DNA from: Symbiodinium sp. CCMP2592
Lineage: Eukaryota > Sar > Dinophyceae > Suessiales > Symbiodiniaceae
Direction: 5' to 3'
Assembly (NCBI GenBank): GCA_905221615.1
Contig: CAJNDT010000513.1
Span: forward strand, 248,001 to 312,000
DNA: 64,000 bases
The stretch's first letter is position 1; each line of letters starts with the position of its first letter. The position numbers and the translations under genes were made by a program. The notes beneath the pieces were generated by a model. It had not been told where the DNA came from and did no database searches. It was given only the letters and a program-made list of their open reading frames with translations. Positions 1,218 through 61,488 of this stretch are shown here, in pieces.

Positions 1218-1466
1218 TTAAGAGTTTATGGTCCTGCAGGCCATTCCAAGTCCTGATGCGCCGTGCAGTTCGGGCACTTGCATTCCACAGATGGATTGAG
1301 AAGCATGGCGAAGTTGCCTAAACGCTATAAACCCCCAAACCCCTAAGCCCTCAAACCCCCAAACCCTAAAATCCTAAACCCTAAAACCCTAAAAACCCTA
1401 AACCCTAAACCCTAAAAACCCTAAGCGAAGTTGCCTTGCGGTTCTATGATGCCTTGGCATTGCCAA
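1218..1466 (-). CDS. terminal exons of the TPR gene, interrupted by a telomere-repeat intron
   Basis: The exon halves 1466-1435 and 1317-1218 flank a 117-bp intron. Joined, they make 44 codons in phase with the preceding exon (2126-2079), ending at a TAA at 1220-1218. A second frame (…NFAMLLNPSVECKCPNC…, stop at 1228-1226) is also open and has a slightly better third-position GC, so the final frame is not certain. Intron removal preserves either frame because it restores the same uninterrupted sequence. Confidence 0.6.
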
Positions 1467-26500: not shown

Positions 26501-29379
26501 CTAGTACCGAACCGCTATAGTACCCTTTTTGAAACCCGGCCTTTAACCCTTAGAGTAGTATCCTAAACCCTAAACCCTACGCGACCGTAAATTCAAAAGA
26601 CTACCCCCGTAGCCTCCGCGATCTGCAAAGCAGAAAGAGCTTCCTTCAAGGTTGCTGTAGGCTTTCGAATCTGGGGTGGGGGGTTCGCGGCTAAGTGATT
26701 AGGGACTCGGGATTGGGATGTAGGCCTTGTAAAGATTAGGTTGGTTGGCGTTTAAAGACACAAGTGTGACATGTCAGGGCAAGGAGATGAGGGGCAAAGG
26801 AGCCTTGGGTGCTTGCACCGACAGGTGCCCCGACCCCCAGGAAGCCGAAGCAACTACGGCAGCAGTGCCTTTGCAGGATGCCCCTGCCGGTATTAGGGTT
26901 TAGGGTTCAGGGTTACCGGCTGAGGTCTTGGGCACACTGCTTGCAATACGAGTTCAAAAGCCACAGATCCCTGTTGGGAAGGCAAAGGTGGCCTCATTCA
27001 GCCAAAGTACTTATTCAGAACCACGCTTACCCTTCTGGTACTGTACAGTTTGTAATCTCACCATCTTCCGGGTACTTCGGCCCTTGAGTTGAGGCTAGGT
27101 CGGCATGTCCAGGGTTTAGGGATTCAGGTCTAGGTGGCCTCCTGTGTAATAGTGTGCTTCTTGCTTGAACCGCAAGACTCTCGTCGTGGTAGAAGTTGAC
27201 AGACTTGTGAGCCCGAAACCTCCGACATACTTATTCTGACCACAGTGCCGGACTGCTAAACCCTCAAAAGTTCAGACAACAGACAATACCGCTAAAACTT
27301 CAATTTCTAAAGCTCCAAGTCAAAAAGACATGCACGCAACAACAAAACGAAGACTAATTCATCCCTTGAACCCCCTGAAAGGACATGCGGTGTCTTAGCA
27401 ACAGCAAAACGTCAAGAACGACTGCAGCTGTAAGACTAGAGACTCGGATAAACGGTGGGTTCTGAACATTGACCAGGGTAATGTAGGAACCTGATTCAGA
27501 AACCCTGGGCAGATAACCCCAAAATCGTAGGTTTTATATTCGGAACCCTAATAAAGGCCCAAGGATTCTTAATCAGCAATCCCCCCAAACCCTACTAGTA
27601 CCCTTAACCCTAATAAAGGCCCAAGCTTTCTTAATCAGGTTCCTACATTAAGAGCGAGAAAGCCTTGAAGCGTGTGGTGAAGCCGCAGAGTTTGCGCCTC
27701 AAACACAACCTTCCGCAACCTTGACCCTAATGTAGGGTCCTTAAATAGAACAACGTTTTAGGGTATCTTAGACCATAATGTTAATAAGGAACCACCAAAA
27801 TATAGTATAGGTAATTATTGAGGCCCCTATAGTACGAGCATGCAAGAAAAGACGGTCCGAGAGCATGTCGTCGTACATGAAGAACTTGTAGTGCGCCATA
27901 GACATGACCATCAGCGTCAAAGCCTTCAGTGGTCAAACATGATTGAGGTCTTTCGAATACCAAAAAAATTCATAATTCGAGCTGCTACCACCGGACTTGT
28001 GAGTTGCTTTTGTTCTTTGTTTGTTTGGGGGGGAGGGGGTTTGGCGGTTCCGGATGTGTCGATAGCTGGGGGCAGCTTTTCATGGTCGGTTTCGGAGTGG
28101 TTCAGTTTGTGGTCTGGGCTTTTACAGGACATCCTCTACAGGTTGAGAATGTGATTATGCCTCTCGCGCCATAGCGCTGAGGATTCCAGCGCCGAAAAAT
28201 TCCAAACCCTGAAACCCCAACCCCGAACAACCCTAACCACCCTGGACACTATAAACCCTAAAGTCTAACCCCCTAAAACTCTAAACCCCTAAACCCGTAA
28301 ACGCACGAAGCCCAAAAAGGTGAGCTACAAAAGTATTGGTTGGATTGCAGGAATTCTCATAGCGTAACGACCTGAAGCCTCGAACAGTCGCACTATTACC
28401 GTTCCCAATCAGTACGATCCTGACTGTTCCTCTGCTTCTTTCTATGCCTCTTGATGACGAGCCTGTAGAACCCAAACGAAAACCCCCATGGCATCTGTTC
28501 GAAACTACCCTGCGGGAGGTACGTCTCTCAAACCCCAAAGCCTAACTACTCGTCTGCCTCGAACTTTGTGTCCTGGGTCTGCTGGAAAGTCTGCCTCGGA
28601 TTGCGAACGGCAAAGTTCGGGCTAAACGGGTAAAGCAAACTCGGTTTTTACAGTGGCTGTATGGGGGTGTGCACGGGTGTTAGAGGGTTTTCTTGGTGTT
28701 AGAGTGGCTTTTGGCATCTATAGGGCTCTGGGAGTTTAGGGCAAAAGGGTTGAAGGATAGAGATTTTGGGCTCTGGGCAGTAAGGGGTTGTGTAGGATTG
28801 TGGGGATTTAGGGGTTGGTTGGTTTAGGGTTTAGGGTTTAGGGTAGAGGGTTCAGTGTCGAGCCGATCCAGCTTGCGAGATACCGCAACCTTTCCTCTTA
28901 ACTATGGTAGGATCGTAACACTTCCCAAAATGTCTCAGGCAGCCTGCTCAGCTATCCCGGCTTAGGGCTTTTTTCCCTGTGAGAAGACATTTAGTGTGGT
29001 TTCGGGGTTGGCGAGTTTGCGGCGCAATGCAGCCGCGAAGGCTTGCCGGCCTGCATTGCATGAAGGCGTCATGGAGCTTAGCCATCCCCTGTGCGTTGTG
29101 CGTCTTTGTTGCTTATTTTGAGGGTGCATAATTTCATGTCCGATTCATCCTCAATGGCACAGATCGTGTATTGAATGGCTTCTGGGTCATCAGCCGCTCT
29201 GAGGCTATAGAACCTTGGTAAGCCCTTAACCGCAAGCCCCGTATATGACAGCTAAGAGACTTCTGTTCATGTGATCCTACTGGCCGACACTTTGCCAGTG
29301 GTTGCGGCTTCGCTACATTACCTATTGAGAGTTATGAAGCTACCTTGACCTACGCAAACACGCAGACTCAGACAGATGT

Positions 29380-43576: not shown

Positions 43577-61488
<17,912 letters not shown>

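Follow-up and report, generated by a model that had tools for sequence, protein, structure and literature searches.

Short interstitial telomeric sequences of mammals are telomere arrays inserted at double-strand breaks (PMC7215372, PMC2246262). Human telomeric insertions are found in introns and none (0) in exons, and a plain target duplication is recorded at 3 of 66 horse loci (PMC7215372). Direct repeats also accompany the neointrons of Daphnia, where they measure 4–12 bp and arise from staggered breaks (PMC4202315). The introners of Symbiodinium microadriaticum have a 4-bp target duplication together with inverted repeats (PMC9860276). More generally, the introners of Symbiodinium and other algae (PMC9860276) and of Amoebophrya (PMC7789003) form similar copies, often with inverted repeats, and have direct repeats of 3–9 bp. 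The telomere repeat of dinoflagellates is given as TTTAGGG (PMC11453091).

Here we describe a telomere-like array between two copies of a 12-bp repeat in a stretch of 64,000 nucleotides from Symbiodinium sp. CCMP2592. This whole stretch is called the window, and negative positions lie to the left of its first base. The locus has in common with the mammalian short interstitial sequences a short telomere array, a duplication (seen at some of the mammalian loci and read there as staggered-break repair) and bases in telomere register at the junction (PMC7215372). Its repeat is TTTAGGG rather than the mammalian TTAGGG. Also unlike the mammalian sequences, the array is degenerate and lies in a genome in which about 10% of random DNA is telomere-like, and no empty site was seen for it. 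The neointrons of Daphnia likewise hold an insert between direct repeats of similar length, but those inserts are introns in coding exons, whereas the present one lies inside an intron (PMC4202315). With the introners the locus shares an insertion with direct repeats, a duplication of a kind that can supply splice sites (PMC9860276, PMC7789003). In its working the insert resembles the mammalian telomeric insertions. Unlike an introner, it has no similar copies among the matches from the best 40 of 917 candidates, and no inverted repeats at its ends.

Anatomy of the repeat and the array

The sequence GCGAAGTTGCCT forms an exact 12-bp direct repeat, without strand assignment, with copies at 1308–1319 and 1425–1436, 117 bp from start to start. 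Between them, at 1320–1424, lies a degenerate array of telomere type; its TTTAGGG strand is the minus strand, which is also the sense strand of the enclosing gene. The original prediction had described a 12-bp duplication flanking about 105 bp of CCCTAAA, and its letters are correct. A third copy of GCGAAGTTGCCT was not found in the window at up to two mismatches. The CCT within the 12-bp repeat also fits the telomere register, so the target duplication may be anywhere from 9 to 12 bp long.

Compared with a perfect repeat, the 105-bp CCCTAAA array has 88 matches, 12 insertions and five substitutions. Its edit distance per base is 0.162 against a median of 0.342, and among arrays of at least 60 bp only 8 of 164 are equally pure or purer (the array's own segment is counted in the 164). 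The changes are unevenly spread: the third of the array that adjoins ...AACTTCGC (minus strand) has inserted bases only, and the third far from it has three substitutions and five insertions. The array is situated at about 249,320 on a contig of 1,254,698 bases. It has two features of a short interstitial telomeric sequence, a non-terminal telomere array and a trace of repair, here the 12-bp repeat with three bases in register. Rfam gave no match, and a search for a spliced-leader relic gave none at up to three mismatches.

The flanks of the unit are unique in its own genome (one candidate, which is the locus itself), and the other genome matches are restricted to the array, at query positions 117–230 (99 matches listed including the locus itself, from the best 40 of 917 candidates scored). 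On these matches, the unit is not a copy of a larger element. These matches bear on whether a transposable element or introner with telomere-like repeats inserted here and caused the duplication. The introners of S. microadriaticum offer a precedent with their target duplications and inverted repeats (PMC9860276), and the present locus does have a target duplication, of 12 (or 9) bp. We nevertheless regard such an element as highly improbable. Among the matches listed from the best 40 of 917 candidates there is no close copy, the best match other than the locus itself being 89% and confined to the array, so that no introner copy family is seen. Terminal inverted repeats, present in many introner families, are absent from the ends of the unit; the sole inverted pair found in 1100–1700, at 1213–1227 and 1415–1429, does not coincide with them.

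Frequency of repeats abutting telomere-like arrays

We surveyed 203 arrays with a score of at least 20, of which 80 lie in the window and 123 come from twenty other 10-kb stretches of the genome. Only one of the 203, the array at 1320–1424, has an exact direct repeat of at least 9 bp that abuts it at both ends within 3 bp. For the control, left flanks were paired with the right flanks of other arrays on the same strand; 3 of 20,442 such pairs had a repeat of this kind, which corresponds to 0.03 cases expected among 203. With looser placement, and counting repeats with at least nine non-telomeric bases, 0.45 cases were expected and one was seen, the same array. The abutting repeat is more than chance. 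Target duplications at array matches elsewhere (ten arrays at seven loci, L002–L008) gave nothing better than a 9-bp CT simple repeat.

It could still be argued that the repeat is a coincidence or a later local duplication, and that the array has some other history, for example spread by slippage. Direct repeats of at least 11 bp within 1 kb are frequent, with 66 pairs in the window after filtering. In addition, at a loose threshold (score 13, which gives 129 telomere-like stretches in the window, compared with 80 at score 20) two weaker stretches lie near direct repeats of 11 and 13 bp, and these repeats belong to longer imperfect duplications. The copies of GCGAAGTTGCCT, however, abut both ends of the array, a placement for which the expectation is the 0.03 cases given above, and we judge coincidence unlikely. 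The anatomy is best read as telomere-type DNA that was inserted with duplication of its target, as originally predicted.

The enclosing gene and intron 34

When exon-like peptides from the minus strand were used as queries in a protein search, in which only the 7,996 candidates sharing the most words were scored, 19 related proteins were returned, mostly of 808–820 residues. The precomputed domains among them include PF00550 and PF13424, which we take to be the acyl-carrier domain and TPR, respectively, and one of the proteins is named tetratricopeptide repeat protein. An earlier version of the joined peptides matched no family when scanned against Pfam. Residues 1–531 of the relative P0121 (814 residues) map exon by exon onto the minus strand from 39714 to 2088. 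Residues 527–653 are found at −1017 to −7910, to the left of the window, and not between 2088 and 1; matches to residues 651–670 and 667–678 and a weak match to 678–712 reach −12260, and the remainder of the protein was not found. When joined, the exons form a stop-free stretch of 653 codons, with 645 identities to P0121 among the 653 residues. This TPR/acyl-carrier gene occupies 2091–39714 of the window on the minus strand with exons 1–34 and their introns, the later exons being located beyond the left end of the window.

Exon 34 (DDNFEEAERLAK; 2126–2091, minus strand) precedes intron 34, which extends on the same strand from 2090 to −1028 (1–2090 in the window) between protein-anchored exons. 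The intron is 3,119 bp long and GA-AG by the boundaries set here, and the exon after it lies at −1029 to −1066, also on the minus strand. Intron 34 contains the array and, in addition, a nested intronless BTB gene. The site had been predicted to be inside an open exon, and it is instead within intron 34 of the TPR/acyl-carrier gene.

The exons flanking intron 34 encode adjacent residues of a conserved protein, and the residues on either side are directly joined in 13 of the 19 relatives. The motif that follows the junction is present in 14 of the 19, and P0137, a gene model, has 30 extra residues at the junction. The searched motif is absent from the other five, which include P0122, a model that ends near the junction. 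At least two relatives, P0133 (with a TRINITY name) and P0131 (with a GFBE accession), appear to be assembled transcripts, which would mean that RNA from other strains or species joins the exons that flank intron 34. No frame through 1226–1490 continues the TPR/acyl-carrier protein. As the relatives join the flanking exons, 1226–1490 is not an exon of the enclosing gene, for which the array consequently does not stand between exon sequences as a spliceosomal intron does. The proposal that the array itself became an intron does not agree with these joined residues.

The nested gene is a single-exon BTB gene that encodes 508 amino acids, including a BTB domain, and runs from 989 to −534 (1–989 in the window) on the minus strand, the same strand as the enclosing gene. 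Its relatives are named BTB/POZ and MATH domain proteins. A predicted protein, P0003, resembles the DNA upstream of the BTB gene at about 1002–1055 (E = 4e-4) and, by eye, as far as about 1128; nothing in this similarity was seen to reach the array. Comparison of BTB proteins with the empty site gave three weak matches with E of about 0.03 each, which for 139 queries is about the level of chance.

Could the array be spliced out of a different RNA, for instance a leader of the BTB gene or the transcript of an unrecognised gene, as a GC-AG intron with splice sites taken from the target copies? The minus strand does read AG|GC at one copy and TTTAG|GC at the other, and GC-AG is the normal type here, being found in 25 of the 40 introns of the enclosing gene (with eight GT-AG and seven GA-AG, by the boundaries set here). 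The array also brings stop codons in two minus-strand frames and in the plus-strand frame that was looked at. Against this, the site belongs to an intron of the enclosing gene, and the unit is shorter than all 40 introns (189–3,119 bp). The minus strand of the unit has 12 AGG motifs, each of which is a possible acceptor. The best frame across the empty site reads along the plus strand, which does not have the neat GC-AG pair. The codon score of this frame, 8.4, is equalled or exceeded in 17% of random genome windows, though in only 0.6% of base shuffles, and its peptide matches only itself in its own genome and nothing in the protein database, the latter a result limited by the short peptide. 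Two minus-strand frames were considered as the last exon of the upstream gene and dropped, as the protein family continues beyond the BTB gene. Splicing of the array itself seems very improbable on these grounds. The donor AG|GC and acceptor AG|G that had been put forward do exist as letters of the minus strand, but they are weak evidence because any duplication of AGGC provides them. Likewise, the recovery of the sequence after splicing, whichever frame is read, is a property of any direct repeat and does not speak for splicing here.

A probable insertion at a repaired break

We consider that the 117-bp unit is probably a short interstitial telomeric sequence that was put into a pre-existing long intron by the repair of a staggered break. 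We infer the following order of events. A staggered double-strand break would have occurred within the existing intron 34, and fill-in of the overhangs would have duplicated 9–12 bp of the target. The filler between them would be of telomere type. Either telomerase added it to the minus-strand 3′ end ...AACTTCGC, or it was copied from the degenerate telomere-like DNA that is abundant in this genome; its far end would have been joined at AGG, a sequence in register with the repeat. A staggered break, telomere filler and fill-in together would explain both the duplication and the clean borders. The unit would leave the RNA along with the rest of intron 34, making splice sites of its own unnecessary.

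The two sources of the filler can be weighed against each other. The purer third of the array next to ...AACTTCGC is consistent with telomerase synthesis from that end, and the same pattern is also consistent with the capture of an already degenerate piece. Capture is plausible because, at the same threshold, 9.9% of random loci and 26% of the introns of this gene are telomere-like. The presence of a substituted array beside identical target copies suggests that the filler was already degenerate when it arrived, which argues against fresh, faithful synthesis by telomerase; from the comparison of copies and array, capture appears to be favoured. As a general route, insertion with duplication has against it the other 202 of the 203 arrays, which have no such repeat. 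A search for this intron in the DNA of relatives returned nothing, and no empty site was seen.

The insertion would be a dinoflagellate counterpart of the telomeric insertions made in break repair, and it is no demonstration that telomere DNA makes introns: of the proposal that telomeric insertion is a source of introns, the insertion is supported and the making of introns is not. The intron setting of the gene, about a quarter telomere-like and strand-ordered, may matter more than this single insertion.

Telomere-like DNA in the introns of the enclosing gene

The 40 protein-anchored introns (minus strand, from 39696 to 1 and on to −7835) total 45,666 bp. Telomere-like DNA accounts for 29% of this length with a threshold score of 15 and for 26% with one of 20, compared with at most 1.3% and 0.6%, respectively, in two sets of dinucleotide shuffles. 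In random loci (the twenty 10-kb stretches L009–L028, 200 kb) the proportion at score 20 is 9.9%, with none in the dinucleotide shuffle.

The two strands are balanced in total over the 40 introns (14.7% and 14.4%) and ordered along them. In 50-nt bins over the first 300 nt the G type makes up 25–38% and the C type 4–10%, and over the last 300 nt the C type makes up 26–39% and the G type 0–7%. With introns treated as independent, the nearest array within 200 nt is of G type at 21 of 27 donors and of C type at 24 of 25 acceptors, so that 45 of 52 fit the order (p = 7e-8). For arrays with a score of at least 40, leaving out intron 34, 16 of the 18 G-type arrays fall in the 5′ half and all 14 C-type arrays in the 3′ half. 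The base skew also reverses sign from one end of the introns to the other, in agreement with this order. In several introns the G array begins within about 30 nt of the donor and the C array ends within about 30 nt of the acceptor; others depart from this. The order, with TTTAGGG towards the donor and CCCTAAA towards the acceptor, was demonstrated in a single gene, over its 40 anchored introns.

Exact repeats across the intron ends have a mean of 3.38, against 3.03 with the ends mixed (P = 0.006; longest 8). A hairpin between the intron ends was also considered and rejected: the mean duplex energy is −164.0 against −159.1 for shuffled arms, and 19 of the 40 introns gain more than 5 over the shuffled arms. 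The 5′ arms of different introns pair equally well with each other (−164.7), and a special hairpin is not supported. At other loci, evidence for the same strand order is mixed. The gaps between a C array and the following G array look slightly more coding (33 gaps, p = 0.035). For codon-scored open reading frames in the random loci (score of at least 10, 300 nt), 17 of the 29 nearest arrays fit the order (p = 0.46), divided into 13 of 16 for an upstream C array and 4 of 13 for a downstream G array.

One explanation of the strand order would be that introns here are regularly built with telomere-type DNA, laid down with its G strand to the donor and its C strand to the acceptor. Both ends of a break in a gene would receive a cap from telomerase and the caps would then be rejoined, so that introns would grow from healed breaks, and the array at 1320–1424 would be a small example that can still be recognised. 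We think this doubtful. Alternatively, the order could come from selection on splicing, as TTTAG|G close to the true acceptor would create false ones, and C-rich sequence would suit the 3′ end of an intron. If the order holds across genes, it would point either to break healing as a source of long dinoflagellate introns or to strong splicing selection on the strand at intron ends. A search by title and abstract, with most subscription papers beyond reach, found no description of telomeric repeats with introns in dinoflagellates.

Other telomere-like stretches in the window

Two further places in the window combine telomere-like DNA with repeats. The telomere-like stretch at 27544 sits in a longer imperfect duplication; the surrounding segment, 27480–27649, is bounded by AATGTAGGAACCTGAT and its inverse and has, by eye, a longer imperfect direct repeat inside, and it looks like a small inverted-repeat element. 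At 52566–52644, 17 bp of telomere repeat (AAAACCCTAAACCCTAA, 52597–52613) lie between 31-bp direct copies with three mismatches, as counted by eye. This may be a second telomeric insertion with a duplication, older than the first to judge by the divergence of its copies.
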